Of a stretch of DNA of 64,000 nt, positions 4,846 to 46,722 are shown piece by piece. The DNA is taken from assembly GCF_030845995.1 (NCBI RefSeq), contig NZ_CP132719.1:1116001-1180000 (forward strand), read 5' to 3'. The notes beneath the pieces were generated by a model. The model saw only the letters and a list, made by a program, of their open reading frames with translations, did not search any database and had not been told where the DNA came from. A program made the translations under genes and the position numbers. The DNA is from Geothrix sp. 21YS21S-4. GTDB lineage: Bacteria; Acidobacteriota; Holophagae; Holophagales; Holophagaceae. Within the stretch, counting starts at the first letter, position 1, and every line of letters begins with the position of its first letter.

Positions 4846-5274
4846 CCCGTTACGGAACTCACCAGGTGGGGACGGAGCACCATGGATCTGGTGCAGACCC
4901 TTCATGATCTGCAGGCATGGAATGTGTCCCTGATCGCACAGACTGGCCTCCAGTTCGACCTGAGCACACCCCAGGGCAAGCTCATCGCCTCCTTGATGGC
5001 AGCCCTCTCTGAATTCGAGCGAGATCTGCTCAGAGAGCGCATCCGTTCCGGATTCGCGGCGGCGAAGGCCAAGGGAAAAACGTTCGGGCGGAAGCCTGGA
5101 GAACGACCGAAATCCGACCGCCTCGCCCCCAAAGTGCTGCGTCTCTTGGAACAGGGGAAGTCCTACCGCATGATTGCCAAGGAAGTGGATCTCAGCATCA
5201 ACACCATCATGGGCATCGCCCATCGGGAGCGTGAACAAGGGCGCATGCTATCAGAGGAAACCCCTCTGAATTAG
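4846..5274 (+). pseudogene. tnpR: Tn3-family serine resolvase/invertase, 5'-truncated
   Basis: This is the rear two-thirds of a small serine recombinase. The frame shows '[20 protein letters not shown]', 'GLQFDLSTPQGKLIASLMAA' and 'LSEFERDLLRERIRSGFAAA', the end of the resolvase catalytic domain and the long E helix. A helix-turn-helix region with 'LLEQGKSYRMIAKEVDLSIN' closes it. The N-terminal 60 or so residues, including the catalytic serine of the 'R(V/I)S' motif, are absent, and the frame runs into a stop at about 4810. An internal ATG at 4882 could still start a DNA-binding remnant of 130 residues. It should not be catalytically active. Confidence 0.85.
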
Positions 5275-5337
5275 GCTATCGTTGTTCATTAGAACGTATC
5301 GCCCCGCGAGTTCGATGTTACCAACTCATAGGAAAGC

Positions 5338-5354
5338 CCCCGGCTGTGCCGGGG
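5338..5354 (+). repeat. IS200 left-end hairpin
   Basis: CCCCGGC-TGT-GCCGGGG, a 7-bp perfect stem with a 3-nt loop. It lies about 80 bp before the transposase start and matches the right-end hairpin almost exactly. Confidence 0.8.
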
Positions 5355-5436
5355 AGGCAGTAGATGTTTGACATATACAGGAGTCCACCGCAGAAATCTT
5401 CATGTGAGCCGCCAAGCACACATGAGGAGAACTGAG

Positions 5437-5865
5437 ATGGACTCAGAAGAAAGTCTAAGCCACTCCAGATGGGAGTGTAAGTACCACGTGGTCTTTGTGC
5501 CGAAGTGTCGGAGGAAGACGATCTACGAGAAGTTGAGGCCGCACCTTGGAGAAGTCCTGAAGAAGCTGGCAGAGCAGAAGGAAAGCCGAATCATTGAGGG
5601 GCACCTGATGGGTGACCATGTCCATATGCTGATTTCAATTCCACCGAAGTATTCGGTATCGCAGGTGATCGGATTCATCAAGGGGAAGAGCGCCATTCAC
5701 CTGGCTCGAGTCTACGGAGAGAGGAAGCGGAACTTTGTTGGGCAGCATTTCTGGGCCCGAGGATATTTCGTATCGACCGTGGGGCGCGACGAAGCAACAG
5801 TGCGGGAATACATCCGTCGACAAGAAAGGGAGGACCAGCGCTTGGAGCAGATGTTGCCTTGGTAG
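5437..5865 (+). CDS. tnpA: IS200/IS605-family Y1 transposase
   Basis: A 142-residue HUH single-strand transposase. The HUH pair is in 'GDHVHMLISIPP' and the nucleophilic tyrosine in 'VREYIRRQE'. The N-terminal 'CKYHVVFVPKCRRK' and the 'RGYFVSTVGRDEATVREYI' block are family hallmarks, and the length is normal. It would cut and rejoin the hairpin ends of the surrounding element as single-stranded DNA. The ATG at 5437 was chosen because AGGAG lies 8 nt upstream (5424-5428); the same frame is open to 5368. No damage is visible. Base composition is somewhat lower in G+C than the chromosomal genes nearby. Confidence 0.93.
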   Translation: MDSEESLSHSRWECKYHVVFVPKCRRKTIYEKLRPHLGEVLKKLAEQKESRIIEGHLMGDHVHMLISIPPKYSVSQVIGFIKGKSAIHLARVYGERKRNFVGQHFWARGYFVSTVGRDEATVREYIRRQEREDQRLEQMLPW

Positions 5866-23305: not shown

Positions 23306-24835
23306 ATGCACCACGAACGCATCGCGATCATCGACTACGGCAGCCAGTACACCCGGCTGATCACGCGGCGCCTGCGGGAGCTGGGCGCCTTCGGGCTGGT
23401 CTACAACAGTGGAACCTCGGCGGCGGAGATCGCGGGGGCCGACCTGAAGGGCGTGATCCTGTCGGGCGGTCCCAATTCCGTGCTGGAGCCCGGGGCGCCG
23501 GAGCTGGACATGGCCATCCTGGACCTGGGCGTGCCCATCTTGGGCATCTGCTACGGCCAGCAGATCCTGGCCCGGAACCTGGGCGGGCAGCTCCACCGCG
23601 CCACCAGCCGGGAGTACGGCAAGGCCGAGATCACCGCCTCGCCGGAGACTTCCCTGCTGTTCGAAGGCCTGCCCCACGCCCAGCAGGTGTGGATGAGCCA
23701 CGGGGATCACGTGGAAGTGGCGCCCGAGGGCTTCGCCGTGACAGCAAAGACGCCCGGGGTGCCCGTGGCCGCCATGGAGAACGCGGCGCGCCGGATCTAC
23801 GGCATCCAGTTCCACCCCGAAGTGACCCACAGCGCCCAGGGCACGCCGCTCCTCCTGAACTTCCTCAAGTCCTGCGGGATGGCCCTGGATTGGAACGCCG
23901 GCAACTTCATCGAGGAGAAGGTCCGCGCCATCCGACAGCAGGTGGGCGACGGGACCGTCGTCCTGGGGCTCAGCGGCGGCGTGGATTCCAGCGTGGCGGC
24001 CCTGCTGCTGCACAAGGCGATCGGCAAGCGCCTGACCTGCGTCTTCGTGGACCACGGGCTGATGCGCAAGGACGAGATGACGCAGGTCCAGGCCTACTTC
24101 GCGCCCTTCGAGCTGAACGTCCGGTGGATCGACGCTTCCGACGAGTTCCTGGGCGCTCTGCAGGACGTCACCGATCCCGAGCGGAAGCGGAAGATCATCG
24201 GCGGGAAGTTCATCGAGGTCTTCGAGCGCGAGGCCGGCGCGGTGCGCGCGGACTTCCTGGGCCAGGGCACCACCTACCCCGACGTGATCGAATCCAGCGG
24301 CATCGGCGGCGCCATCCTGGTGAAGTCCCACCACAACGTGGGCGGGCTTCCCGAGCGCATGAAGCTGAAGCTGGTGGAGCCGCTCCGCGAGCTGTTCAAG
24401 GACGAGGTCCGCGCCACGGGCCTCGCCTTGGGCCTGCCCGAGGAGATGAACCAGCGGCACCCCTTCCCCGGTCCGGGCCTAGCGGTGCGCCTCCCGGGCG
24501 CCATCACCCGGGAGCGGGTGGCCATCCTCCAGAACGCCGACGCCATCTTCCTCCAGGAGCTGCGGGAGAGTGGCTGGTACGCGAAGACCAGCCAGGCCTT
24601 CGCCGTTCTGCTGCCCGTCCAGACCGTGGGCATCATGGGCGACGAGCGCACCTACGAGGCCATCTGCGCCCTCCGTGCCGTCACCAGCGAGGACTTCATG
24701 ACCGCGGACTGGGCGCGCCTCCCCCACGACCTGCTGGAGAAGATCGCCCAGCGCATCGTGAACGAGGTGAAGGGCATCAACCGCGTCGTCTTCGACATCA
24801 CCTCCAAGCCCCCGGCGACCATCGAATACGAATAA
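23306..24835 (+). CDS. guaA: GMP synthase (glutamine-hydrolysing)
   Basis: Converts XMP to GMP using glutamine and ATP. The 509-residue chain has an N-terminal class I glutamine amidotransferase domain with catalytic Cys82 (GICYGQQILA) and the His-Glu of 'YGIQFHPEVTHS'. The ATP-pyrophosphatase domain carries the P-loop 'GLSGGVDSSVAALLLHKAI'. A C-terminal dimerisation domain has 'RHPFPGPGLAVRLPG' and ends 'FDITSKPPATIEYE'. All catalytic residues are present. The gene stands between two repeat palindromes. Confidence 0.98.
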   Translation: MHHERIAIIDYGSQYTRLITRRLRELGAFGLVYNSGTSAAEIAGADLKGVILSGGPNSVLEPGAPELDMAILDLGVPILGICYGQQILARNLGGQLHRATSREYGKAEITASPETSLLFEGLPHAQQVWMSHGDHVEVAPEGFAVTAKTPGVPVAAMENAARRIYGIQFHPEVTHSAQGTPLLLNFLKSCGMALDWNAGNFIEEKVRAIRQQVGDGTVVLGLSGGVDSSVAALLLHKAIGKRLTCVFVDHGLMRKDEMTQVQAYFAPFELNVRWIDASDEFLGALQDVTDPERKRKIIGGKFIEVFEREAGAVRADFLGQGTTYPDVIESSGIGGAILVKSHHNVGGLPERMKLKLVEPLRELFKDEVRATGLALGLPEEMNQRHPFPGPGLAVRLPGAITRERVAILQNADAIFLQELRESGWYAKTSQAFAVLLPVQTVGIMGDERTYEAICALRAVTSEDFMTADWARLPHDLLEKIAQRIVNEVKGINRVVFDITSKPPATIEYE

Positions 24836-24842
24836 TCGGCCC

Positions 24843-24912
24843 CGGATGAACGCGGAGGGACACGGATGAATCCCCGTGTTTCCCATCTGCGTTCATCCGT
24901 GTTCATCCGTGG
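24843..24912. repeat. Intergenic palindrome, GGATGAACNCGGATG family (ORF-less form)
   Basis: The left arm starts GGATGAACGCGGAGGGACAC. The right arm (24885-24912) is its approximate inverse, ending TTCATCCGTGTTCATCCGTGG with a 15-bp centre between them. The outer ends match the inverted repeats that bracket the GxxExxY gene at 31444-31858. It lies directly after the guaA stop and 12 bp before the next ATG. Confidence 0.75.
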
Positions 24913-24924
24913 CAAAGAGGTTTC

Positions 24925-25371
24925 ATGGCCAAGCGACAAGAACCCGTCCGCAAATCGGTGAAGGAGATCCTGGAGGACCTGCTGGCGGGTCACCGGGAGG
25001 CGGCCTTCAGCGGGCCGGAGGCGGCGCTCAAGTACCTGCGGCGCACCTTCGAGGGCCAGGGCAGCCTGCCCAATGCGGTGAAGGCGGTGGCCTACGACCT
25101 GACGGCCGATGCCCAGGCCCAGCTTGGGCAATGGGAGGCCTGCGCGGCCTCGGTGGACGCGGCGCTCGCCCTCCTTCCGGAGGTGGAGGAGGCCTTTCCC
25201 CACGGCTACCGCCGGATGGTGGAGGGCCTGACCTGTTTCGAGCGGGGCATCCAGGCCCACAGCGAACTGGGCGACTTCCACCGGGCCCTGGAGCTGTGCG
25301 AGCGGGCCATCTCCCTGGACCTGGGCGCCCACTACCAGGCGAAGCGGGATTCCCTGGAATGGGCCCGCTGA
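24925..25371 (+). CDS. TPR-like helical protein of unknown function
   Basis: A 148-residue protein without a signal peptide or membrane segment. It is built of amphipathic helices in TPR-like pairs: 'AVAYDLTADAQAQLGQWEAC' with 'AASVDAALALLP', and 'FERGIQAHSELGDFHRALEL' with 'CERAISLDLG'. The last pair fits the TPR consensus well. It starts 'MAKRQEPVRKSVKEILEDLL'. AGAGG lies 4 nt before the ATG. It may be a scaffold, perhaps for the response regulator 66 bp downstream, but nothing specific identifies it. Confidence 0.75.
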   Translation: MAKRQEPVRKSVKEILEDLLAGHREAAFSGPEAALKYLRRTFEGQGSLPNAVKAVAYDLTADAQAQLGQWEACAASVDAALALLPEVEEAFPHGYRRMVEGLTCFERGIQAHSELGDFHRALELCERAISLDLGAHYQAKRDSLEWAR

Positions 25372-25437
25372 GGGCGATCCTCCGGAAAACTTGAGATCGC
25401 TCCCGCGGAAGCCGTTGAGGCGGAAAGCGGAGAGCGC

Positions 25438-26520
25438 ATGACCGAGGACATCCAGGTGGTGCCGGCGGAGACCCGCGTCCTGATCGTGGACGACCTTCCG
25501 GTCATCCGCCTGTCCCTCCAGCGGATCCTGGCCAAGGCTGGCTACCGCTGCCGGGAGGCGGAGGACGTTTCCCAGGCCCTGGCCGCCCTGGAGGCCGAGC
25601 CCGCCGACCTGGTGCTGTGCGACATCCAGATGCCGGGAGCCTCGGGTTTGGACCTGGTCAAGGCGCTCCACCCCCGGATCCCCGACACCTCCGTGGTGAT
25701 GGTGAGTTCGGTGGAGGACGCGGAGACGGCCATCGAGTGCCTCCAGCAGGGGGCCTTCGGCTACGTCCTCAAGCCCTTCCAGCCCCGGGAGATCCTCGTC
25801 CAGGTGAACGGCGCCCTGCGCCGCCGGAGGCTGGAGATCGCCTTCCGCGACCGGGAGGCGGAGCTGGCGCAGAAGGTCCGGGAGCAGACCCTCCAGATCC
25901 GGGATTCCCGGGAGGAGATCGCCCTCCGCCTGATCGCCGCCACGGAGCACCGGGACAACGAGACGGGGATGCACGTCCGGCGGATCGGGCTCTACGCCGC
26001 CGAAATGGCGCGGCTGCTGGGCTGGGACGAGGCCCGGGTGGAGACCCTCCAATCCGCGGCGCCCATGCACGACATCGGCAAGATCGGCGTCCCGGACGCC
26101 ATCCTCCAGAAGCCCGGCGCCCTGACGGACGACGAGTGGGTGGCCATGCGGCGCCACACCACCATGGGCGCCGCCATCCTCAAGGGCTCCACGGTCCCCT
26201 TCATCCAGATGGGGGCGCGGATCGCCGTGGGGCACCACGAGAAGTGGGACGGCAGCGGCTATCCCAAGGGCCTGAAGGGCGAGGTCATTCCCCTGGAGGC
26301 CCGCATCACCACGCTGGTGGACGTCTACGACGCGGTGCGGAACCGGCGCCGCTACAAGGATCCGTGGCCCGAGGACCAGGTGGTGGCCCTGATCCGGGAA
26401 GGCCGGGGAACCCATTTCGATCCGGCGCTGGTGGACTTGTTCCTGTCGAACCTGGGACGGTTCCGCGCCATCCTGGAGGCGAACCCCGACGAGGCGCCGG
26501 ACGAGGACGCGGGCCCCTGA
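25438..26520 (+). CDS. Response regulator with HD-GYP cyclic-di-GMP phosphodiesterase domain
   Basis: A 360-residue two-domain regulator. The receiver (about 12-125) has acceptor Asp62 in 'LVLCDIQMPGASG' and the Lys in 'YVLKPFQPREI'. A coiled linker leads to the HD-GYP domain (about 155-355), with metal ligands His211-Asp212 (MHDIGKIGVPD), His240 (RRHTTMGA), His266-His267 (GHHEKWDGSGYPKG) and Asp295 (LVDVYDA). The GYP triplet is intact, so it should hydrolyse cyclic-di-GMP under control of a cognate kinase, none of which is adjacent. Together with the two GGDEF proteins further on it suggests heavy use of cyclic-di-GMP. Confidence 0.95.
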   Translation: MTEDIQVVPAETRVLIVDDLPVIRLSLQRILAKAGYRCREAEDVSQALAALEAEPADLVLCDIQMPGASGLDLVKALHPRIPDTSVVMVSSVEDAETAIECLQQGAFGYVLKPFQPREILVQVNGALRRRRLEIAFRDREAELAQKVREQTLQIRDSREEIALRLIAATEHRDNETGMHVRRIGLYAAEMARLLGWDEARVETLQSAAPMHDIGKIGVPDAILQKPGALTDDEWVAMRRHTTMGAAILKGSTVPFIQMGARIAVGHHEKWDGSGYPKGLKGEVIPLEARITTLVDVYDAVRNRRRYKDPWPEDQVVALIREGRGTHFDPALVDLFLSNLGRFRAILEANPDEAPDEDAGP

Positions 26521-26551
26521 TCCCAACCCGGGAAGGGGGAAGGAGGCCGCC

Positions 26552-27634
26552 GTGAAACTCGCCGACTACCGCACCCTGGGGCACTCGGGCCTGCGCGTCA
26601 GCCCGCTGTGCCTGGGCACCATGACCTTCGGGATGGACTGGGGCTGGGGGGCGGACGTCCCCGCCAGCCGCGCCATCCTGGACCGCTACCTGGAGGCCGG
26701 CGGCAACTTCATCGACACCGCCAACATCTACACCAAGGGCCACAGCGAGACCATCCTGGGCGACCACTTCGCGGAGCGCGGCGGGCGGGACCGGGTGGTC
26801 CTGGCGACCAAGTTCTGCGGCAACCTGCATCCGGGCGATCCCAATGGCGGCGGGGCCGGGCGGAAGGCCATCCAGCAGCAGCTGGAGCAGAGCCTGCGCC
26901 GCCTGCGGACGGACTGCATCGACCTCTACTGGATGCACTTCGACGACCCCTACACCCCGATCGACGAGACGCTCCGCGCCCTGGACGACCTCGTGCGGGC
27001 CGGGAAGATCCGCTACCTCGGCGTCTCCGACACGCCCGCGTGGAAGGTGGCTGGAGGCCAGGTGGAAGCCGGGCTCCGGGGCTGGTCGCCCCTCGTGGCG
27101 CTCCAGATCGAATACTCGCTCATCGAGCGCACGGTGGAGCACGACCTGCTGCCCATGGCGCGGGCGCACGGTCTGGGCGTCACGCCCTGGTCCCCGCTCC
27201 GGGGGGGGCTGCTCAGCGGGAAGTACGGCCGGAACCGCCGGCCCGAGGGCGAGGGTCGTCACGTGCCGGGCGTGTCCAAAAGCCTCAACGAGCGCAACTA
27301 CGCCATCCTCGATGCCGCCGAGGCCGTGGCGACGGAGCTGGGGACGGGCATGGCCCAGGTGGCCTTGGCCTGGGTCCTGGCGCGGCCGGGCGTGGCCAGC
27401 CCCATTCTGGGCGCCCGCACCCTGGAGCAGCTGGACGCCAATCTCCGGGCGCTGGACCTGGACCTGCCGCCCGAGCTGATGGCCCGGCTCGACGCCGCCA
27501 GCGAGCCCGCGCCCATCTTCCCCCACGCATTTCTGGTCAATGCCAAGAGCGTGATGCACGGCGGCTCCGCCATCGACGGCGTCCCCGCGGCCCCCTGGCC
27601 CTTGGCGCCGCAGACGGACCAGGAGCGGTGGTAA
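26552..27634 (+). CDS. Aldo/keto reductase
   Basis: A 360-residue NAD(P)H-dependent oxidoreductase of the aldo/keto reductase superfamily. The TIM-barrel active site is visible: Asp and Tyr in 'NFIDTANIYTKGHSE', Lys in 'VVLATKFCGNL' and His in 'DLYWMHFDDP'. The cofactor end has 'ASPILGARTLEQLDANLRAL'. The closest general type is the YajO/GSP69-like group; the substrate cannot be told. Translation starts at a GTG with a strong GGAAGGAGG-type site just upstream. The downstream histidine phosphatase gene begins 8 bp after its stop. Confidence 0.93.
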   Translation: MKLADYRTLGHSGLRVSPLCLGTMTFGMDWGWGADVPASRAILDRYLEAGGNFIDTANIYTKGHSETILGDHFAERGGRDRVVLATKFCGNLHPGDPNGGGAGRKAIQQQLEQSLRRLRTDCIDLYWMHFDDPYTPIDETLRALDDLVRAGKIRYLGVSDTPAWKVAGGQVEAGLRGWSPLVALQIEYSLIERTVEHDLLPMARAHGLGVTPWSPLRGGLLSGKYGRNRRPEGEGRHVPGVSKSLNERNYAILDAAEAVATELGTGMAQVALAWVLARPGVASPILGARTLEQLDANLRALDLDLPPELMARLDAASEPAPIFPHAFLVNAKSVMHGGSAIDGVPAAPWPLAPQTDQERW

Positions 27635-27642
27635 AAGGAACG

Positions 27643-28158
27643 ATGCGCTTCTTCCTCGCCGTCGTCCTTCTCGCCGCTTCCGGCCTCGCCGCCCAGGAGA
27701 CCACCGTCGTGGTGCTCCGCCACGCCGAGCGCCAGTCGTTCCTGGACCAGGATTCCCCCCTGTCCGACGCCGGGCTCCGCCGCGCCGCGGCGCTGCCTCC
27801 CCAGTTGGCGGGCTTCAAGCCCGCGGCCCTGTACGCCTCCGATCGGAAGCGCACCCAGCAGACCCTGGCCCCCTTCGCCGCGCAATCGGGCGTGGCGCCC
27901 CTGGTACGTTCCGCCGATGGAACCGAGGCGTTGGCGGCGGAGATCCTGCGCGAGCGACGCGGGCAGACCGTGATCGTCTGCTGGCACCACGACCTGGTGA
28001 AGAAGCTGGCGCGGGGCCTGGGTGTGAAGGGGCCACTGCCCTACTGGTCGCTGGATACCTACGACCGGCTGTGGATCATCAGCGTCCCGGCCCAGGGCGC
28101 CCCGACGCTGGTGGAAAAGCTCCAGGCCTCAGCGCCAGCTGCCGTCCCGGCGGCCTGA
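27643..28158 (+). CDS. Exported histidine phosphatase family (SixA/PhoE-like) protein
   Basis: A 171-residue protein with a short signal peptide (MRFFLAVVLLAASGLAA). The mature part starts with the phospho-His motif 'VVVLRHAERQ' (RHxE) and later has 'ALYASDRKRTQQTLAPF' and 'IVCWHHDLVKKLARG' with the second catalytic His. It is a compact member of the branch-1 histidine phosphatases and probably periplasmic. The substrate is unknown. It follows the aldo/keto reductase closely. Its last 30 bp overlap the end of the convergent amine oxidase gene. Confidence 0.88.
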   Translation: MRFFLAVVLLAASGLAAQETTVVVLRHAERQSFLDQDSPLSDAGLRRAAALPPQLAGFKPAALYASDRKRTQQTLAPFAAQSGVAPLVRSADGTEALAAEILRERRGQTVIVCWHHDLVKKLARGLGVKGPLPYWSLDTYDRLWIISVPAQGAPTLVEKLQASAPAAVPAA

Positions 28159-29736
28159 GGCCGCCAGCACTTCCTCCGCCGCCCGCAGGCCGTGGTCCTG
28201 GGCCTCCTCGAACAGGGCCAGGCCGCTGAGTTCCGTGTGGGCGAAGTGGACGTTCCCGAAGGGCCGGGCCAGCGCCAGGAAGGCGGGATCCCACATCAAC
28301 CCGGGCTGCGGACGGACCATGGCGTGACCCCACCGCATCACGTCCAGCCGCGCCACCAGGCCCTCCAGGTCGGGGTGGGCGGGGCGCAGGTCGTCCATCA
28401 CCATCCGGGCGCAGGCGGACCAGTCCAGGGTGCGGAGCCGGGCCCGCTCGGCGTCGCACTCCGCCCCCGCGAAGGGGCGATACCAGGTGAGGACCGTGGG
28501 GCCGTAGTCCTTCAAGCCCTGGTGCGTGGCCGCCACGTAGCCCAGGGCTTCGCTGTCCCGCAGAACGTTGTCCCAGGCGAGGGGGAAGGCGGCTTCCTTG
28601 GGCCGCGCCCGCAGCGTGAGGTTGGCCACCATCCAGGGGGCGTTGCGGATGCGGGCCGCGGCGGGTCGGGCCTCCGCCAGCCCCGCCACGATGTGCCGCG
28701 CGGCGTGCTGGGGACCGGCGAAGATCACCCGCTGCGCCCGCCAGCCCACCCGCCGCTGGTTCACCGCGTCCCAGGCCGTGACGAGGAGATCGCTGCCGTC
28801 GGGCCGGATGGCGGTGGCCACCACGCCGCAACGCAACCGGTCGCCGCAGGCGCGGCGGAGGTGGTTCACGAGGAAGCCGTTGCCCTCGGGCCAGGTGAGG
28901 AGGGGCCGCGAATCCTCGCCCGGGCCCTGCTTCCGCGCCGCGAAGTAGAACAGGCCCGCCCAGGCGCTGGTGGTCTCCAGCCGCGACCCGTAGTCGTCCC
29001 GGCAGGCGTAGTCCAGCAGCCAGCGCAGGCGCGGCGACGAGAAGCCCCGGGCGTCCAGCCAGGCGGCGAAGGAGAGCGCGTCCAGGGCCACCGCTTCCGG
29101 GGCGTCCGAGCACCGGGACCGGGGAATGCTGAAGGCGGGCCGGCCGGCGCGGTCCCGGAAGGCCGCCCAGCGGTCCACCTCGCGGAAGAAGGCGTGGTAC
29201 TGCCGCTCGTCCTCGGCGCTGGCGCCCGCCCGCAGGTAGAGGCCCTCCCACCACTGGCCGTAGGCGAAGATCCGCTCCTCCGGCGCGCGCACCGTGGCCT
29301 CCTCCGCGAACCGGGGCTCGCCCTTGGCGTCGAAGCCCTCCAGGACACCGCATTCCGCCAGCAGGCGCAGGACCGCGTGGTTGCCCTTATCCGGCACCGG
29401 CAGGTAGTGGGCGGCCCACGGAAAGGCGCTGACGTGGTTGCGGCCGGATCGGGAGGTGCCGCCGGGCTCGCGCTCCAGCTCCAGGACGCGGAAGTCGTCC
29501 AGTCCGCCGCCCGCCAGCCGCCACGCAGCGCTGAGCCCGGCCACGCCGCCGCCCACGACGAGGACGGACACGGGCTCGAAGCGCTCCGGATCCGGAAAGG
29601 CCCCGTCCCGGATCCAGTGGCCCAGCGCCACGTCCGGCCCGATCAACTCGCCCTGGAACGGGAACTCGGGCTTCCGCCGGCAGGCCAGGGGAACTGCCGA
29701 GAGGGCGCCCGCAGCGAGAAAATCGCGGCGCTTCAT
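28129..29736 (-). CDS. FAD-dependent amine oxidase-like flavoprotein (Tat/lipoprotein-type signal)
   Basis: A 535-residue flavoprotein. The N-terminus 'MKRRDFLAAGALSAVPLAC' combines a twin-arginine-like KRRDF motif with a possible lipobox cysteine, so it is likely exported folded. The FAD-binding 'VLVVGGGVAGLSAAWRL' follows, then 'LELEREPGGTSRSGRN' and a C-terminal 'GNVHFAHTELSGLALFEEA', as in flavin amine oxidases. In this locus polyamine or amine oxidation is a reasonable guess, since a spermidine synthase homologue lies upstream on the same strand. The start at 29736 excludes an upstream frame extension that is only repeat sequence. Confidence 0.85.
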   Translation of the reverse strand: MKRRDFLAAGALSAVPLACRRKPEFPFQGELIGPDVALGHWIRDGAFPDPERFEPVSVLVVGGGVAGLSAAWRLAGGGLDDFRVLELEREPGGTSRSGRNHVSAFPWAAHYLPVPDKGNHAVLRLLAECGVLEGFDAKGEPRFAEEATVRAPEERIFAYGQWWEGLYLRAGASAEDERQYHAFFREVDRWAAFRDRAGRPAFSIPRSRCSDAPEAVALDALSFAAWLDARGFSSPRLRWLLDYACRDDYGSRLETTSAWAGLFYFAARKQGPGEDSRPLLTWPEGNGFLVNHLRRACGDRLRCGVVATAIRPDGSDLLVTAWDAVNQRRVGWRAQRVIFAGPQHAARHIVAGLAEARPAAARIRNAPWMVANLTLRARPKEAAFPLAWDNVLRDSEALGYVAATHQGLKDYGPTVLTWYRPFAGAECDAERARLRTLDWSACARMVMDDLRPAHPDLEGLVARLDVMRWGHAMVRPQPGLMWDPAFLALARPFGNVHFAHTELSGLALFEEAQDHGLRAAEEVLAASGRRDGSWR

Positions 29737-29777
29737 GGCCTGCCCAGATGGAGGGGGGGAAAGGAAAAACGAGTTGA

Positions 29778-29854
29778 AACCGCAGATGACGCAGAGGGCC
29801 GCAGATGAAGGAGGTTCCATCTTTTCATCTGCGTTATCGGCGACATCTGCGGTT
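29778..29854. repeat. Intergenic palindrome, AACCGCAGATG family
   Basis: Arms AACCGCAGATG (29778-29788) and CATCTGCGGTT (29844-29854), with further inverted similarity inside (CCGCAGATGAA against TTCATCTGCG). It occupies most of the gap between the spermidine synthase-like and amine oxidase genes. Confidence 0.7.
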
Positions 29855-29908
29855 CCCATGCCTTTCCCCGCGAGCGAGGAACCTCTTCCCCAACAGGGCG
29901 CATCCCCC

Positions 29909-31447
29909 TCACGACCACCGCCGCCACTCCCGGGCGTAGAGGTGGACCAGCAGCTGGTTGTCGAGGCGGTTCACGTCGGTGGGGATGCGGTCCATGTCCT
30001 TGGGAAAGGCGAACATGGCCGCGGTGGCTTCGTCGGACAGGTGGCGCAGGCCGGGCAGGACGCGGGTGGGGACGGCGAACTCGCGCTTGGAGGCCAGGGC
30101 GAAGCCCCACACCCCGAAGGACGGGACGGCCAGGTGGTAGGGCCGCACCTTCAGTCCCGCGGCCTCCATGGTCGCGGCGATGCACCAGAAGGACTGCCGC
30201 GCCATGAGCGGCGACGTGCTCTGGACGGCGATCACGGCGTCGTCGGCAAGGCGCCGCTGGAGCAGCCGGTAGAACCGCGACGTGTAGAGCTTCCCCAGGG
30301 CGTAGGTGTTGGGGTCGGGGAAATCCACCAGCGCCACGTCGAAGGGCGCCCCTTGCGTCTCCTGGAGCCACACCATGGCGTCAGCGTTGACGACCTTCAC
30401 CCGGGGATCGTCCAGGGCGGCGCCGTTGAGCTGGCGCACCATGGGCTGATGCCGCGCCATGTCGGTCATGGCGGGGTCCAGGTCCACCAGCACCACCTCC
30501 CGCACCGAGGGCTGCTTCAGGACTTCGCGCACGGCCAGTCCGTCCCCGCCGCCGCAGACCAGCACCCGCTTCGCGTCGGGCCGGACGCCGAAGGCCGGAT
30601 GGACCAGGGCCTCGTGATAGCGGTACTCGTCCGCGCTGGAGAACTGCAGGTTGCCGTTGAGGAAGAGCTGGAAGCTGCCCCGCCCGCGCGTGAGGACGAT
30701 GCGCTGGTAGGCGCTGTCCTTGGCGTAGACGATCTCGTCGGCGAAGATCTCCTCCTCCACCGCCAGGGTGAATTTCCCGGCGAAGCCCAGACCCAGCGCC
30801 AGGATGGCCATCACCGCGAAGCAGCGGGCGCGCAGCATCCGCGTGGGGCCGAGTTGGGACCGGAGCAGGTGGGTGGACCACAGCCCCACGGCCGCGTTCA
30901 GCAGGCCGAAGGCGAGGCTGGTCCGCACCAGGCCGAGCTTGGGCATCAGCAGCAGCGGGAACAGCAGCGAGGCGAACAGGGCGCCGATGTAGTCCAGGGT
31001 CAGCACGCCCGCAACCAAGTCCTTGAAGCGCACCTGGTCCTTGAGGATCCGCATGAGGATGGGGATCTCCAGGCCCACCAGCGTTCCCACCGCCGTCACC
31101 ACGCCGTAGAGCACCACCCGGAAGGCGTGGGTGTGGGCGAAGGCCTGGAAGAGACTGGGCGCGGAAAACCCACCCACCAGAGCCACCGCCAGCTCCAGGT
31201 CCACGAAGCGCCGCGCGAGCCCCCGCTGGAGGAACTTGGACAGCCAGGAGCCCAGCCCCATGGCGCTGAGGTAGACCCCGATCACCGTGGAGAACTGCGT
31301 GACCGAATCCCCCAGCAGGTAGCTCGACAGCGTCCCCGCCACCAGCTCGTAGATCAGCCCGCAGCTGGCGATGAGCAGCACGCTGAGGAACAGCAGAGGA
31401 GCCTTGAGGGCGGGCTCCGACGGGAGGGCAGAAGCTGAATCAGCCAC
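29909..31447 (-). CDS. speE: Membrane-anchored spermidine synthase-like aminopropyltransferase
   Basis: A 512-residue protein. The first 230 residues hold about seven hydrophobic segments, including 'LYGVVTAVGTLVGLEIPILM'. A cytosolic spermidine-synthase domain follows, with 'LFLNGNLQFSSADEYRYHEA', the SAM-binding 'VLVCGGGDGLAVREVLK', 'VVLVDLDPAMTDMAR' and 'VDFPDPNTYALGKLY', whose D-x-P-D loop fits the aminopropyl-transfer site. It probably transfers an aminopropyl group to an amine; substrates are unproven and no speD is in the window. The only upstream start in frame is a GTG at 31445-31447, and it falls inside the terminal repeat of the neighbouring cassette. No good ribosome-binding site precedes it. 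Confidence 0.9.
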   Translation of the reverse strand: MADSASALPSEPALKAPLLFLSVLLIASCGLIYELVAGTLSSYLLGDSVTQFSTVIGVYLSAMGLGSWLSKFLQRGLARRFVDLELAVALVGGFSAPSLFQAFAHTHAFRVVLYGVVTAVGTLVGLEIPILMRILKDQVRFKDLVAGVLTLDYIGALFASLLFPLLLMPKLGLVRTSLAFGLLNAAVGLWSTHLLRSQLGPTRMLRARCFAVMAILALGLGFAGKFTLAVEEEIFADEIVYAKDSAYQRIVLTRGRGSFQLFLNGNLQFSSADEYRYHEALVHPAFGVRPDAKRVLVCGGGDGLAVREVLKQPSVREVVLVDLDPAMTDMARHQPMVRQLNGAALDDPRVKVVNADAMVWLQETQGAPFDVALVDFPDPNTYALGKLYTSRFYRLLQRRLADDAVIAVQSTSPLMARQSFWCIAATMEAAGLKVRPYHLAVPSFGVWGFALASKREFAVPTRVLPGLRHLSDEATAAMFAFPKDMDRIPTDVNRLDNQLLVHLYAREWRRWS

Positions 31448-31473
31448 GGATGAACGCGGATGGACACGGATGG
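31444..31473 (+). repeat. Terminal inverted repeat of the GxxExxY cassette (left)
   Basis: Begins CCACGGATGAACGCGGATGG and ends ACACGGATGG. Its inverse copy is at 31829-31858. It also supplies the GTG start of the speE-like gene on the minus strand. Confidence 0.75.
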
Positions 31474-31474
31474 G

Positions 31475-31870
31475 TCATAGGGACACTCGCTTCACGCCGA
31501 CTTTCGGGAAGAAGAAGTTGAGGATCAGGCCCCGCCGCAGTCCGGTGGCGCGCAAGTAATTGAGGCACTGAGCGAGGTGGATGTCCTCCAGATGCGTGAC
31601 GCACTTCAATTCAACGATGACGCAGCCGACCACCAGCAGATCGGCGAAGTAATCCCTGGCGATCACTCCGTCGTACATGACCTTCACAGGATGCTGCTGC
31701 AGAACGGGGAAGCCCGCTTTCCTCAACTCGTGGGCGAGGGCGTTCTCGTAGACCTTCTCCAGAAACCCGCATCCAAGCGTGTTGCTGACCTTGAATGCCG
31801 CCCCGATGATGGCTTCGGACACGGCCTCCCATCCGCGTTCATCCGGGTTCATCTGTGGCAGATCACCCAT
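31475..31870 (-). CDS. GxxExxY family protein
   Basis: A 131-residue protein of the GxxExxY family, named for the motif seen here as 'GCGFLEKVYENALA'. The rest fits the family: 'EAIIGAAFKVSNTLGCG', 'LRKAGFPVLQQHPVKVMYDG', 'RDYFADLLVVGCVIVELKCV' and 'LAQCLNYLRATGLRRGLILN'. The 'D-LV---VIVELK' core resembles a PD-(D/E)xK nuclease fold, but the function is not established. The first Met overlaps the DUF350 stop. A second Met at 31850-31852 gives 'MNPDERGWEA', which is encoded by the terminal repeat. The gene fits inside the repeat-bounded cassette and is probably read with the host operon. Confidence 0.88.
   Translation of the reverse strand: MGDLPQMNPDERGWEAVSEAIIGAAFKVSNTLGCGFLEKVYENALAHELRKAGFPVLQQHPVKVMYDGVIARDYFADLLVVGCVIVELKCVTHLEDIHLAQCLNYLRATGLRRGLILNFFFPKVGVKRVSL
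31829..31858 (-). repeat. Terminal inverted repeat of the GxxExxY cassette (right)
   Basis: On the minus strand it begins CCACAGATGAACCCGGATGA and ends ACGCGGATGG. It is translated into the N-terminus of the GxxExxY protein. Confidence 0.75.
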
Positions 31871-32081
31871 GGATCGCGGCGGCGATGATGAGGCTGATGC
31901 CCAGGATCAGGGCGCCCAGGACGATGCCGAGGGCGACGTTCTGGTCGTCCTCCATCTCCTTGCGGAGGGAGAAGGGGAGGATCTTCACCAGGAGGAGCCA
32001 CACGAGGCCCAGGATGGCGAGGCCGAGGAGGGAGAAGACGGCGGCGACGAGGAGCTGGTGAAGCAGCGGGTTGGCGATCAT
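31863..32081 (-). CDS. DUF350-family small membrane protein
   Basis: A 72-residue integral membrane protein with two hydrophobic helices, 'LLVAAVFSLLGLAILGLVWL' and 'VALGIVLGALILGISLIIAA', joined by a short charged loop (PFSLRKEMEDDQN). The 'ALGIVLGALILGISLIIAAA' end is characteristic of DUF350. The biochemical role is unknown. DUF350 genes recur beside DUF4178 and spermidine-synthase-like genes in many bacteria, as here. GGAGG lies 8 nt upstream, and the ATG overlaps the previous stop as TGATG. Confidence 0.85.
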   Translation of the reverse strand: MIANPLLHQLLVAAVFSLLGLAILGLVWLLLVKILPFSLRKEMEDDQNVALGIVLGALILGISLIIAAAIHG

Positions 32082-32260
32082 CACTTGCCTCCGTGGAAAC
32101 CGTTGTTGTGCAGGAAGGTGCGGTAGGCGCCGGGGGTCTGGCGCACGCTGGGGGGCAGGTCCGCGCGGCGGTGCTGGCCGAAGAATTCGCGCCCGAAGAA
32201 GCCGTTGGCGACGACCAGACTGAAGCCGCCCGCGAGAAAGAGCAGGTAGAGGATGCGCAT
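32081..32260 (-). CDS. Small single-span membrane protein of the DUF4178/DUF350 locus
   Basis: A 59-residue protein, 'MRILYLLFLAGGFSLVVANG' followed by a polar tail with 'FFGREFFGQHRRADLPPSVR' and 'TPGAYRTFLHNNGFHGGK'. One N-terminal hydrophobic helix suggests a membrane anchor or an uncleaved signal. Both ends overlap neighbouring genes as TGATG, so it is almost certainly translated with them. I do not recognise a family. The tight coupling and the conserved-looking tail argue that it is real. Confidence 0.7.
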   Translation of the reverse strand: MRILYLLFLAGGFSLVVANGFFGREFFGQHRRADLPPSVRQTPGAYRTFLHNNGFHGGK

Positions 32261-34263
32261 CAGTCGTCGTCTCCCGAAGAAGCTCCCGCCGCGTAGGCGC
32301 TCTCCTGCCAGCGCCGGCTCTCAAAGGCCGCCATCCGCAGCGCCGTCACCAGCGGCACGACGAGGATGGCCACCAGCGCGAGGACGGGATAGAGCCAGCG
32401 CATCACGCCCTGGCGCAGCTCGACCTCGATGCTCCGCACCGGCGGCATCTTCCCCTCCCATTGGGGAGCCAGCCGCAGGACGTAGCTGCCGGGCGGAACG
32501 GCGCTGAGGAAGACCGTCTGCGTCTGGGCGCCTTCGGCCCAGGATTCGCCGCCGTCCACGCCGCGGTAGAAGCTCGATTCCACCAGGAACAGCTCCGCGA
32601 CGCCGGTGGTCTCGCTCACCAGGGCCCCTTCCACGCTCACCCAGCTGTTGCTGACGGGGGCGCGGAGGGTGAAGGCCAGGTTCCGGTGCCCCTCCTTGAT
32701 CTGGATGGGATCGGAGAAGTAGACGGGTTCGGGGGATTCGCCGGCCGGAGCCGGTCCCCGGGGGGAAGAGGGGCGATGGATGGTGTCGCCCACCTGGAAA
32801 TCGAGGCGGGCCAGGTCGTACAGATCCAGTTGCTGATGGAAGAGCTGAGTGCGGCGGTGGGTGGCGGATTCGGCCAGGACCAGCACCAGCAGCAGGCCCA
32901 GCGCGGCGACGGCCCAGAGCCAAGCTCGGCTCAGGGCGGGCTTGTGGGGGTTGGGCTGGAATGCCCCGATGCCGATGGGTGGAGGCGGCGCGCCGGGAAG
33001 CTGGAAGGCCGTCCACACCTCGCTCGGATCCAGGTAGGTGGAGAGGCTCCAGTTGACCTCCTCGCCGCCGTTGGGATGTGCCTGCCGCTCCCGCGTCAGG
33101 CTGCGGGGCGGCGCTACGAATTCCGAGACATCCACCCGCTCGCCCCGCGTCACCTGCCAGTAGAACTCGCCCCACACGCCCTCGACCACGGCCGACGTGT
33201 CCTGGAACCGCCGCCACGTCTCGTCCAGGGCCGACAGGTTCTTCTGTCCCCGCTGCGGCTGGGGGATCTCTCCGGCGGGCGCGGCGACGGCCAGGCTCCA
33301 GTGGCCCTCGCTCTGCACCAGCCACTGGAAGCCGTGCCCGGCGTCCAGGAGGAGGTATTCGTTCCAGGGATACACCGTCCCGTCCACGGTGCAGCTGCGC
33401 CGGAGCTGGCCGATGCAGATCACGCGCTCCCCGCGGAGGGTCCCTTCGGCTCCCAGGGGGATGGCCAGGCTCGCATGGGGGCGCTCCAGGCTCTTGAGGA
33501 ACGCCAGCTTGCCGTGCTCGGCGGACAGCAGGCTGCCGCAACTGGGACAGCCCACGCGGAGGGTCTGGTCCGGCGCCCGCAGAGCCAACGGCCCCCCGCA
33601 CTTGGGGCAGTTGAGGTTCTGGACCGCCACCGGGGGTGCCTTCCGGGTGCCCCCTCGGATGCCCAGCTCTTCCAGCGCAATTTCCCGGCCCACGAACAGC
33701 AGCGGCGGCTCCTCCCCGTAATCCAGGGTGGCGAAGGCGCCGCGGGGGCCCGAGAGGTCCGCGAAGCGATAGGTGGCGCCGGGTTCCACGGCCCAGGGGA
33801 TCTCGCCCTCGGCGCTGTGGAAGGCGGCTTCGCTGACTTCCACGACGGTCCACAGGCCGTCGGGTCCCAGGTCCGCGGGGGCGCCCGCCTTCAGCTCCGC
33901 TACGGGAGGAAGGGGACCGCGCGGCGCCTGGGCGAAGGTGAGGTAGAAGCGGCCCTGCGCCTCCGCCAGCCAGCCCCAGCGGCCGTCGTCCAGGGCCAGG
34001 TACCACTCGTCCCAGGTGCCGCCCAGCGGATGCTTCAGCTGGACGCGGCCCGCCAGGGTGAAGGCGCGTCCCGTCCACGTCCCCGTGGCCCCGAGGCCCA
34101 GGGGCGAGCCCGTGTCCACCAGCGCCGCCGCCTTGCCGAGCAGCTCCGGATCCCGGTCCCGGCGGGCGGCGAGGGCGTGGCAGTAGGGACAGACCGCGAC
34201 CATCGTCCCCGGGCGGAAGCTCAGGGGGGCACCGCAACTGGGGCAGGAGGCGAGGGCGCTCAT
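32260..34263 (-). CDS. Double DUF4178 zinc-ribbon membrane protein
   Basis: A 667-residue protein with two repeats of a zinc ribbon plus a DUF4178-type beta domain. The first ribbon is 'CPSCGAPLSFRPGTMVAVCP' ending CPYCH (7-29), and the second is 'CPKCGGPLALRAPD...CPSCG' near 219-245. Each is followed by a domain with 'GGTWDEWYLALDDGRWGWLA' or 'YPWNEYLLLDAGHGFQWLV'. Membrane helices lie near 445-465 and 635-655, enclosing an extracytoplasmic beta-rich region. The function is unknown. Such proteins travel with DUF350 and aminopropyltransferase genes. The gene lies 17 bp from the aminotransferase gene. Confidence 0.85.
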   Translation of the reverse strand: MSALASCPSCGAPLSFRPGTMVAVCPYCHALAARRDRDPELLGKAAALVDTGSPLGLGATGTWTGRAFTLAGRVQLKHPLGGTWDEWYLALDDGRWGWLAEAQGRFYLTFAQAPRGPLPPVAELKAGAPADLGPDGLWTVVEVSEAAFHSAEGEIPWAVEPGATYRFADLSGPRGAFATLDYGEEPPLLFVGREIALEELGIRGGTRKAPPVAVQNLNCPKCGGPLALRAPDQTLRVGCPSCGSLLSAEHGKLAFLKSLERPHASLAIPLGAEGTLRGERVICIGQLRRSCTVDGTVYPWNEYLLLDAGHGFQWLVQSEGHWSLAVAAPAGEIPQPQRGQKNLSALDETWRRFQDTSAVVEGVWGEFYWQVTRGERVDVSEFVAPPRSLTRERQAHPNGGEEVNWSLSTYLDPSEVWTAFQLPGAPPPPIGIGAFQPNPHKPALSRAWLWAVAALGLLLVLVLAESATHRRTQLFHQQLDLYDLARLDFQVGDTIHRPSSPRGPAPAGESPEPVYFSDPIQIKEGHRNLAFTLRAPVSNSWVSVEGALVSETTGVAELFLVESSFYRGVDGGESWAEGAQTQTVFLSAVPPGSYVLRLAPQWEGKMPPVRSIEVELRQGVMRWLYPVLALVAILVVPLVTALRMAAFESRRWQESAYAAGASSGDDD

Positions 34264-35636: not shown

Positions 35637-36314
35637 ATGGCGAAGACGCCCAAAGTCGCGGTGCTGCTGGCCGGTTGCGGCCACCTCGACGGCGCCGAGG
35701 TGCGCGAGGCGGTCCTGGCGCTGCTGGCGCTCGATCAGCACGGCGCGGCGTTCCAGTGCATCGCGCCCAACGCGGACCAGTACCACGTCGTCAACCACGC
35801 CACGGGGCAGCCGGTTCCCGGTGCCGCCCGCAACATCCTGGAAGAGGCCAGCCGCATCGCGCGGATGGGCGAGTGCCTGGATCTCGCCCGCGCCGATCCC
35901 GGCGACTACGACGCCCTCGTGATGCCCGGCGGGTACGGCGTCGCCAAGAACCACTGCACTTTCGCGCTCAAGGGCGCCGAAGCGGAGGTGCGCCCGGACG
36001 TGGCGGCCTTCGTCCGCGCCTTCTTCGATGCCAAGAAGCCCGTGGGGGCCATCTGCATCGCGCCCGCCCTGGTGGCGCTCGTCCTGTCCCGGGACGCGCC
36101 GGTGGACCTCACCCTGGGCATGGATCCCGGTTCCGCCGCCGCGGTGCAGGCCCTGGGCCACCGCCACATCGCCACGCCCAACGCCCGGGAGATCGTCGTG
36201 GACGAGGGCCGCAAGCTGATCACCACGCCCGCCTACATGTTCGACGACGCCCGGCTGGGGGATGTGTGGATTGGAATCGAACGCTGCGTGAATGAAGTTC
36301 TCAAGCGCTGCTGA
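35637..36314 (+). CDS. elbB: ElbB-type glyoxalase (DJ-1/PfpI superfamily)
   Basis: A 225-residue ElbB homologue. It starts 'VAVLLAGCGHLDGAEVREAV' and has 'CIAPNADQYHVVNHATGQP', 'ILEEASRIARMGECLDLA', 'DALVMPGGYGVAKN' and the nucleophile elbow with Cys in 'KPVGAICIAPALVALVL'. E. coli ElbB is described as a class of glyoxalase that hydrates methylglyoxal-like aldehydes. The ATG at 35637 has GGAG 7 nt upstream. Its last codons ('GIERCVNEVLKRC') lie inside the first unit of a triplicated 128-bp sequence, so the C-terminal coding end is copied twice downstream. Confidence 0.92.
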   Translation: MAKTPKVAVLLAGCGHLDGAEVREAVLALLALDQHGAAFQCIAPNADQYHVVNHATGQPVPGAARNILEEASRIARMGECLDLARADPGDYDALVMPGGYGVAKNHCTFALKGAEAEVRPDVAAFVRAFFDAKKPVGAICIAPALVALVLSRDAPVDLTLGMDPGSAAAVQALGHRHIATPNAREIVVDEGRKLITTPAYMFDDARLGDVWIGIERCVNEVLKRC

Positions 36315-36655
36315 AAGGGGCCGGTGATTCGCTCCCTGCGGGGCCCCGCTCCGCAGGCTCCCCCGGAGCCTGTTCCGCGACCCGCATGGTCGCGAGGATT
36401 GGGCTCGGACGGTGCGTGAGTGGAAGTTCTCAAGCGCTGTTGAAGGGGGCTGGTGATTCGCTCCTTGCGGAGCCCCGCTCCGCAGGCTCCCCCGGAGCCT
36501 GCTTCGCGACCCGCATGGTCGCGAGGATGGGGATCGAACGCTGCGTGAGTGAAGTCCTCAAGCGCTGCTGAAGGGGGCCGGTGATTCGCTCCCTGCGGGG
36601 CCCCGCTCCGCAGGCTCCCCCGGAGCCTGCTCCGCGACCCGCATGGTCGCGAGGA
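36271..36655 (+). repeat. Three tandem 128-bp units including the elbB 3' end
   Basis: Units at about 36271-36398, 36399-36527 and 36528-36655. Each contains the last codons and stop of elbB, then CAGGCTCC-CCC-GGAGCCTG and CGCGACC-CGCAT-GGTCGCG hairpins. Unit 3 keeps an open copy of the C-terminus (GIERCVSEVLKRC plus stop). Unit 2 has a 1-nt insertion. Beyond it, 36656-36791 holds only the presumed promoter of the next gene. Confidence 0.9.
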
Positions 36656-46008: not shown

Positions 46009-46722
46009 ATGCGATACGGAACCTACCTTGTCCCTGCGGCGATCGTGCTGACGCTCGGAAGCCTCGCTTGCAAGCCGCCCAAGACGGCGGAGCAGCTGAA
46101 GCAGGAGACGCAGGCGGCCTTCAACGAGGGCTACCAGGCGTTCAAGGACGGGAAGGCGCGGGAGACCAACCCCTACCTGAACGACAAGGAAAACCCCCAC
46201 AAGATGCAGGGCTGGTACGACGGCTGGGACAAGGCCAAGGCCGACAAGGACGCCGCTGACAAGGCCGCTGCCGACAAGGCCGCCGCCGACGAAGCCGCTC
46301 GCCGCGCCGCCGCCGAGAAGGCCGCCGCCGACGAGGCCGCCCGCCGCGCCGCCGAGGCCGAGAAGGCCGCCGCCTTCACGCGCGCCGCCGAAGCCGCGCT
46401 GAAGACGATCCACTTCGACTACGACAAGTCCGACATCAAGGAATCCGACCGCGCCATCCTTCAGGGCATCGCCGACTTCCTGAAGGCCTATCCCGCCGCC
46501 AAGGTCGAGATCGCCGGCCACTGCGACGAGCGCGGAACCAACGAGTACAACCTGGCCCTCGGCAACCGCCGCGCCGCCGCCGCCCTCGCCTACCTCAAGA
46601 CCCTGGGCGTGGACGAGGCCCGCTTCACCACCATCAGCTACGGCAAGGAAAAGCCCCTGTGCACCGAGGCCAAGGAGGCCTGCTGGAGCCAGAATCGCCG
46701 CGGCGAGTTCAAGCTGAAGTAG
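46009..46722 (+). CDS. pal: Peptidoglycan-associated OmpA-family lipoprotein (Pal)
   Basis: A 237-residue lipoprotein. The lipobox 'TLGSLAC' places the lipid on Cys21. Residues 30-75 are polar with 'QAAFNEGYQAFKDGKA'. A striking Ala/Lys/Asp/Glu-rich coiled segment (about 76-125) is built of 'ADKAAAD' and 'AARRAA' heptad-like repeats. The C-terminal OmpA domain (about 130-235) has 'IHFDYDKSDIKESDRAIL' and the peptidoglycan-binding 'NEYNLALGNRRAAAALAYL'. It should tether outer membrane to peptidoglycan and bind TolB, encoded just upstream. The repeat-rich linker is longer than in E. coli Pal. Confidence 0.93.
   Translation: MRYGTYLVPAAIVLTLGSLACKPPKTAEQLKQETQAAFNEGYQAFKDGKARETNPYLNDKENPHKMQGWYDGWDKAKADKDAADKAAADKAAADEAARRAAAEKAAADEAARRAAEAEKAAAFTRAAEAALKTIHFDYDKSDIKESDRAILQGIADFLKAYPAAKVEIAGHCDERGTNEYNLALGNRRAAAALAYLKTLGVDEARFTTISYGKEKPLCTEAKEACWSQNRRGEFKLK

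Follow-up and report, generated by a model that had tools for sequence, protein, structure and literature searches.

Among the closest described counterparts of the locus reported here are the REPIN-RAYT systems and short gene-less elements such as the SMR and PATE elements of Haloquadratum. In the available text of three reports (PMC3116915, PMC3733652, PMC8266576), the anatomy of a REPIN-RAYT system is given as an enzyme gene together with gene-less repeat palindromes. The available part of PMC3119063 describes SMR and PATE elements as preferring other palindromic elements as targets. It gives the mobiliser of the SMRs as not known, and its PATEs have no terminal inverted repeats and are linked to IS605-type transposons. 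The gene at the centre of the present locus encodes a GxxExxY protein. Such proteins are widespread, often with several per genome. In the literature searched, with subscription papers and database comments outside its scope, no report of their function or of a repeat association was found; the passages available mention the name in passing, with no role assigned.

The window (the whole 64-kb stretch of Geothrix DNA that was analysed) belongs to a genome of one contig of 3.08 Mb, of which it covers positions 1,116,001-1,180,000. An earlier note, made from the letters of the window, had described a GxxExxY gene between two near-identical inverse copies of a 30-bp sequence, the same sequence recurring as a stand-alone palindrome at 24843-24912. 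Both features are confirmed (Table 1), the palindrome at about 24840-24912, and the arms share an inverted core of 17 nt without any mismatch (31447-31463/31829-31845). A third palindrome of the region, absent from that note, belongs to a different family from the cassette. The 19-nt pattern of the repeat occurs nine times in the window, where 0.46 matches would be expected. None of 100 shuffles gave nine, and eight of the nine fall in the cassette segment or in 24840-24912. A chance origin of the repeat was considered and is ruled out by this control and by the comparison with other ORFs given below. Other repeats of the window include a 128-bp unit present three times in tandem at 36268-36655 (90% matches), and 15/42-bp tandem repeats of GACAAGGCCGCCGCC and its variants at 46228-46397.

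Table 1. Features of the cassette, its neighbour and the two stand-alone palindromes (positions of the window)
Feature	Position	Strand	Remark
Gene-less stand-alone palindrome, GGATGAAC family (the family of the cassette)	24840..24912	.	
Stand-alone palindrome, CGCAGATG family (that of another GxxExxY gene of the same genome, L031)	29778..29854	.	
Downstream gene, spermidine-synthase-like (by eye), first codons interrupted	29909..31447	-	ORF list
Left arm, three GGATG-type units (CCACGGATGAACGCGGATGGACACGGATGG)	31444..31473	+	26/30 identity to the inverse of the right arm
GxxExxY gene, 131 aa, predicted PD-(D/E)xK nuclease (E38, D77, E87, K89, Q101, Y105)	31475..31870	-	
Right arm, inverted copy; residues 5-14 of the GxxExxY gene are read from it	31829..31858	-	

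The junctions of the cassette differ in some details from the first description. The stop codon, said to lie 2 bp from the repeat, is 1 bp away from it. The N-terminal part of the protein is indeed encoded by the other arm, but the residues concerned are PQMNPDERGW and not NPDERGWEA. A CAG triplet does stand beside each outer edge here, but the pair is not kept in the five congeners with a full cassette at this site, whose edges read TAG/CAA in three cases, TAG/CAG in one and TAG/CCT in one (by eye). The CAG triplets are therefore no evidence for a target duplication. The annotated GTG start of the downstream gene now lies inside the cassette arm. Translated by eye, MGDLPQ forms the start of that gene in two congeners with an empty site (L181, L185) and the start of the GxxExxY ORF here, which shows that the cassette inserted into the opening codons of this neighbour.

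The association between gene and arms extends far beyond this locus. In the arm test, the 200 bp preceding the gene domain are aligned with the 200 bp following it, the latter taken as reverse complement. All six GxxExxY (PF13366) genes of the genome itself pass. The search of the genus Geothrix gave 163 matches, of which 136 were retrieved and, one having too little flank, 135 were tested; matching inverted arms were found at 117 of these 135 genes, compared to 9 of 866 other ORFs, and 18 genes failed. Matching arms were also found at 19 of 27 GxxExxY genes from the phylum's other genera. Among many phyla and archaea, 62 of the 78 scored loci lie above the 99th percentile obtained by shuffling the right flank (80 loci had been named, two of which were left out for short flanks). 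The arm-flanked loci are spread over planctomycete, verrucomicrobial, acidobacterial, bacteroidete and archaeal genomes. When random placements in the window serve as reference, 119 of 141 loci lie beyond the 99th percentile; this set includes the copies L155-L169, and the control with other ORFs is judged the fairer one. Of 1000 draws of mismatched left and right flanks, 74 passed; this is due to the pool, which contained those same copies and orthologous families.

The counts from the genus, set against the other ORFs, and those from elsewhere refute a chance insertion of the gene into a palindrome, an explanation that retains next to no probability. The idea of the earlier note that gene and arms belong together as a unit is borne out family-wide, and inverted flanks are general among other GxxExxY genes. 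Its 30-bp end, in contrast, is not shared: when the flanks of 35 genes were compared, most had matching inverted arms, the sequence of which differs from gene to gene, each family having its own unit sequence. The link between each gene and a repeat family of its own offers an origin for short repeats like ACCGCAGAGACGCAGAG or CACGGATGAACACGGATG that flank GxxExxY genes. At one locus (L055:700-1400, G036), the CCCCGT-type repeats flanking the GxxExxY gene look direct rather than inverted (by eye).

The arms follow a common grammar. A typical arm consists of three units of about 7 bp (CRCNRAK-like) at a spacing of 8-10 bp, with AC usually standing before the first unit. Exactly three units were found in 156 of 232 scored arms, and the spacing is 8, 9 or 10 bp in 444 of 467 cases. 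This description is drawn from those loci (122 of 246) in which both sides have a strict CRCNRAK core, and the locus of the window (L034) lies outside this set. At paired positions the units of the two arms agree by 94%, a value biased upward since the units were picked with at most one mismatch; the spacers agree by 62% across arms. Other families use ACAGGAT, GGTGAT or GGGGAT units (by eye), and these types were left out of the covariation analyses described below.

The GxxExxY ORF matches TIGR04256 (6e-40, 136.2 bits, cut-off 35) and PF13366 (8.5e-39, 133 bits, cut-off 22). A search by sequence gave no relative of solved structure, with two hits at E values of 0.45 and 0.93. For the predicted structure (pLDDT 90.2, pTM 0.84), Foldseek places PD-(D/E)xK nucleases at the head of its matches, namely LHK-Exo (3syy, E 1e-4), Cas4 SSO0001 (4ic1, E 6e-4) and lambda exonuclease, with Hjc lower. 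A structural aligner puts Cas4 SSO0001 (4ic1_G) on top, with a Z of 9.7 and an rmsd of 3.1 across 98 residues, the remaining rows reaching a Z of 8.1 at most; Hjc shows weak fold similarity (Z 7.0). E38, D77 and E87 do not vary across 64 proteins, and K89 (at least 90%), Q101 and Y105 are nearly as constant. The PD-(D/E)xK-like core that the earlier note had named is supported by these motif residues and the structure model, and the protein is accordingly predicted to be a PD-(D/E)xK nuclease. No PHROG match was found for GxxExxY and none of the PADLOC defence models matched it. The family was seen in none of 50,697 phage records and in 8 of 72,556 plasmid records (E 1e-5).

The protein and its units covary. 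Variation at unit position 5 goes with the columns of S18, E19, I22 (all three in the first helix) and R113, and variation at unit position 4 with that of V84; none of 400 tree-based simulations reached the observed values. The analysis comprised 108 columns and six features (about 648 tests), of which 17 gave p<=0.0025 compared to about 2-3 expected by chance, and nine of these 17 column-feature pairs were reached by none of the 400 simulations. The alignment columns were mapped to the residues of the window by hand. Where unit position 5 is A (39 proteins), the S18 column is A or S in 32 and T in one; where it is G (75 proteins), the column is T in 59. The protein of the window has S at this column and three site-8 relatives have C, where the main S18 rule pairs T with G, so the window's protein departs from that rule. 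Unit positions 2 and 4 give a weaker signal than position 5. The residues encoded by the arms do not cause the covariation, because the arms end outside the domain. A further pair, unit position 7 (G/T) with L/F at F36, was discounted as part of a code: it involves only four changes on the tree and is perhaps a clade marker.

As for the location of the cassettes, 136 genes of the genus and three from a neighbouring genus were grouped by site, which gave 26 sites that are shared and 11 singletons. Within a site, protein identity to the first member ranges over 56-99%, and for 16 sites dN/dS was obtained, at 0.06-0.16 (pairs with finite dS, near saturation). The GxxExxY protein is under purifying selection. 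For most cassettes the chromosomal site is conserved and the inheritance looks vertical. With 26 shared sites among 139 loci, cassettes rarely change site. The arms at a given site can nevertheless differ between species, and both then differ together and still match each other. This joint change was found at site 0 (CACCAAG vs CGCCAAG), site 1 (CGCAGATG vs CACAGATT), site 4 (CACGGAA vs CACAGAG) and site 13 (CGCGAATG vs CGCGAAA).

The earlier note had taken the arrangement for a small mobile cassette with a MITE-like derivative. The gene-less palindromes do seem to be the mobile part, but a cassette that moves by itself is not supported, given the mostly fixed sites. The sole high-copy case (28 matches) was considered for self-mobility and rejected: in G128, from another genus of the family (L153-L169), the cassette lies within an IS-like element with repeated flanks (by eye), which carries it in dozens of copies. 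At least 25 of these copies have one common internal deletion of the gene (query 530 to 729). Among the matches listed for G128 there was no copy without the cassette, and hence no empty site. In the filled and empty pairs compared, which come from highly divergent genomes, no clean target-site duplication was seen.

Presence and absence vary among congeners, where empty sites, which the earlier note had proposed to look for in close strains, are common. The slots were counted by hand in 34 genomes. At the site of the window's cassette, six genomes have the cassette, one an internally deleted cassette (G016) and one a gene-less remnant (G006); three have a palindrome that belongs to a different family (G045, G005, G028) and one (G004) a CACCAAG-armed DUF4268/PDC-S11 cassette. 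Twenty are empty and two unreadable. In the G004 cassette (L357:654-1622) a 322-aa DUF4268 gene matching the candidate defence model PDC-S11 lies between the CACCAAG-type arms, so arms of such a kind can carry other genes. The 24840 slot is filled in 19 of 34 congeners by palindromes or remnants of four families, and empty in 14; one genome (G011) shows a duplication there but no palindrome. In only 7 of the 19 filled genomes is the matching gene known (CACAGATT, 4/4; CGCAGATG, 2/7; GGATGAAC, 1/4; CGCAGAG, 0/4). Consequently, either the palindromes outlive their genes or some genes were missed.

When three slots were compared across the genomes G000, G031 and G015, they held differing families or were empty. 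The slot orthologous to 29778-29854 holds CACAGATT in G031 and CGCGAATG in G015, and the latter genome also has GGATGAAC and CGCAGATG palindromes without a known matching gene. At the slot occupied in G000 and G031 by the site-1 cassette, G015 carries a palindrome without the gene. That one slot can hold both forms fits an explanation by homing or conversion, according to which the palindrome is the older and intact target, GxxExxY cuts palindromes of its family, and repair of the cut brings in a copy of the gene or of the arm sequence, so that slots are converted and not newly invaded. This explanation also agrees with orthologous slots that bear the family of the resident gene, and with the arms and the dispersed copies switching together. 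However, many slots of congeners are wholly empty, and the cassettes scarcely reach new sites. In addition, in one G031 slot an apparently decayed arm of the older family stands next to an intact palindrome of the newer one (by eye), and this speaks for insertion rather than conversion. Homing or conversion is regarded as unlikely, and insertion of palindrome copies is the preferred reading of the slots.

The number of gene-less palindromes follows the matching gene. In 47 genomes, palindrome counts are higher where the matching gene is present in four of four families (p 0.00066, 0.0012, 0.00033 and 0.00051, kinship ignored). These values come from a looser presence rule, which classified 35 loci of the genus and leaves hits within cassettes in the counts; a strict rule, tried first, gave p=0.0023, 0.0073, 0.030 and 0.0016. 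The gene lists of the count test cover 136 of the 163 genus genes. Tests of mismatched genes and palindromes gave p>0.05 in 11 of 12 cases. The exception (p=0.0093) may be explained by the ACCGATG pattern, which at two mismatches also catches GGATGAAC palindromes; the CRCAGATT pattern likewise catches CGCAGATG palindromes. Controls with reversed patterns stayed at or near zero in the 47 genomes. The number of GxxExxY genes correlates with total hits at a Spearman coefficient of 0.55 in the 47 genomes and 0.63 in the 30 that are at least 93% complete (kinship ignored in both). Among these 30, the four genomes without the gene have 12, 1, 4 and 6 hits, and the other 26 have 3 to 220. Gene-less copies of the repeat, which the earlier note had suggested counting, are thus commoner where the matching gene is present.

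The same match is seen palindrome by palindrome. In a 400-kb segment from each of three genomes, 29 palindromes were listed, and for 26 of them the same genome also carries a gene of their family (11/11, 12/13 and 3/5). When the gene lists were swapped between the three genomes, 21 of 58 palindromes matched, compared to 26 of 29 in the true pairing. The list was merged by hand from two scans, each of which missed members, and its family labels and gene lists were also assigned by hand. Twenty of the 29 palindromes lie outside long ORFs, and ORF coverage of the segments is about 0.9. This placement would suit a host function, in which the palindromes serve as terminators, mRNA ends or parts of the chromosome structure and a resolvase-like GxxExxY protein binds or resolves them, their spread having another cause. 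The strong purifying selection (dN/dS about 0.1), the vertical inheritance of the cassettes and the weak fold resemblance to Hjc point the same way. Against a host function stand the frequent empty slots (20/34 and 14/34 at the two slots counted), the replacement of palindrome families by one another, and a palindrome number that tracks the matching gene; in addition, no Rfam family matched in 24000-33000 of the window. A host function is therefore considered rather improbable, and the preferred reading remains that of palindromes that spread with their own nuclease.

A last candidate for moving the palindromes is a Y1 (HUH) transposase of the RAYT or TIRYT kind, with GxxExxY as a passenger. 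The architecture is shared by REP systems, as far as the available text of two reports describes them (PMC3116915, PMC3733652), and the genome of the window has five identical copies of Y1_Tnp, all with one score. On the other hand, Y1_Tnp (PF01797) occurs in only 5 of the 47 genomes, far fewer than have palindromes of at least one tested family, and GTAG stands at only 2 of 58 palindrome feet. It is very improbable that GxxExxY is such a passenger. In the window itself, an ORF resembling the C-terminus of a resolvase or recombinase (by eye), followed by a Y1_Tnp gene, was noted at 4882-5865.

Taken as a whole, the gene, its arms and the scattered palindromes probably form one system, in which a sequence-specific nuclease acts in trans on the palindromes of its own family. 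The element would consist of two inverted arms, placed either around the gene (cassette) or around a short loop (palindrome). The GxxExxY protein would recognise the tandem units of about 7 bp, usually three per arm, in part through its first helix. It would then cut or process the palindromes of its own family in trans, perhaps as extruded cruciforms. Subsequently, palindrome copies would enter intergenic slots and replace older ones, and the nuclease gene would remain at its fixed site and be inherited vertically, as do the RAYT transposases beside their REPINs. DNA binding, cleavage, mobilisation in trans and the cruciform substrate are what we infer from the comparative data. The best reading is that of a nuclease with cognate palindromes, similar in build to REPIN-RAYT and based on an unrelated enzyme.

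We also lean, by a little, towards a wider reading in which GxxExxY defines a class of elements found across bacteria and archaea. Here, a lone PD-(D/E)xK nuclease would replace the transposase, read its tandem units of about 7 bp through a partly decodable code and act in trans to spread the gene-less palindromes of its family. Nuclease and repeats would co-evolve, so that across the tree a change of the repeat word goes with a change of the recognition residues. For each GxxExxY protein, the repeat family of its own provides a directly testable substrate. The covariation of units and residues is a natural data set for working out the DNA specificity of such a small nuclease. If mobilisation in trans is true, a REPIN-like lifestyle has arisen a second time with an unrelated enzyme.

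With regard to known systems, an architecture of dispersed palindromes linked to an enzyme has precedent, but the enzyme class and the repeat grammar differ. To our knowledge, there is no precedent for the combination of a PD-(D/E)xK enzyme with repeats of tandem units. The protein shares its fold and the E / D / ExK / QxxxY residues with Cas4, lambda exonuclease and Hjc, but the identity is just 7-19% in the structural alignments listed, and we know of no link between these enzymes and cognate palindromes. As in a MITE and its parent transposon, short gene-less elements with inverted ends occur beside a gene-bearing form. Unlike a MITE parent, this form matched only PF13366/TIGR04256 and no transposase family, and sits mostly at fixed sites; no clean target duplication was seen in the divergent pairs compared.

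The SMR and PATE elements of Haloquadratum resemble the palindromes as short gene-less elements with inverted ends. They have no target duplication, of which no clean case was seen here in the divergent pairs compared, and no linked nuclease gene in the part of their description available (PMC3119063). In TIRYTs, or TIRtrons, the gene likewise lies between terminal inverted repeats, which are longer and make up repeat families; their enzyme is a tyrosine transposase, and a grammar of tandem units is not part of the available description (PMC3733652). The likeness to REPIN-RAYT, as given in the available text (PMC3116915, PMC3733652), covers several traits: inverted repeats flank the enzyme gene and also occur as intergenic gene-less palindromes, several families per genome each have their own enzyme, and the enzyme gene stays at one place and is vertically inherited. 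In contrast to REPIN-RAYT, the linked enzyme here is a PF13366 protein of the predicted PD-(D/E)xK type instead of a Y1 HUH transposase, the arms are built of tandem units of about 7 bp, the GTAG tag stands at 2 of 58 palindrome feet, and the GxxExxY system extends widely across bacteria and archaea.
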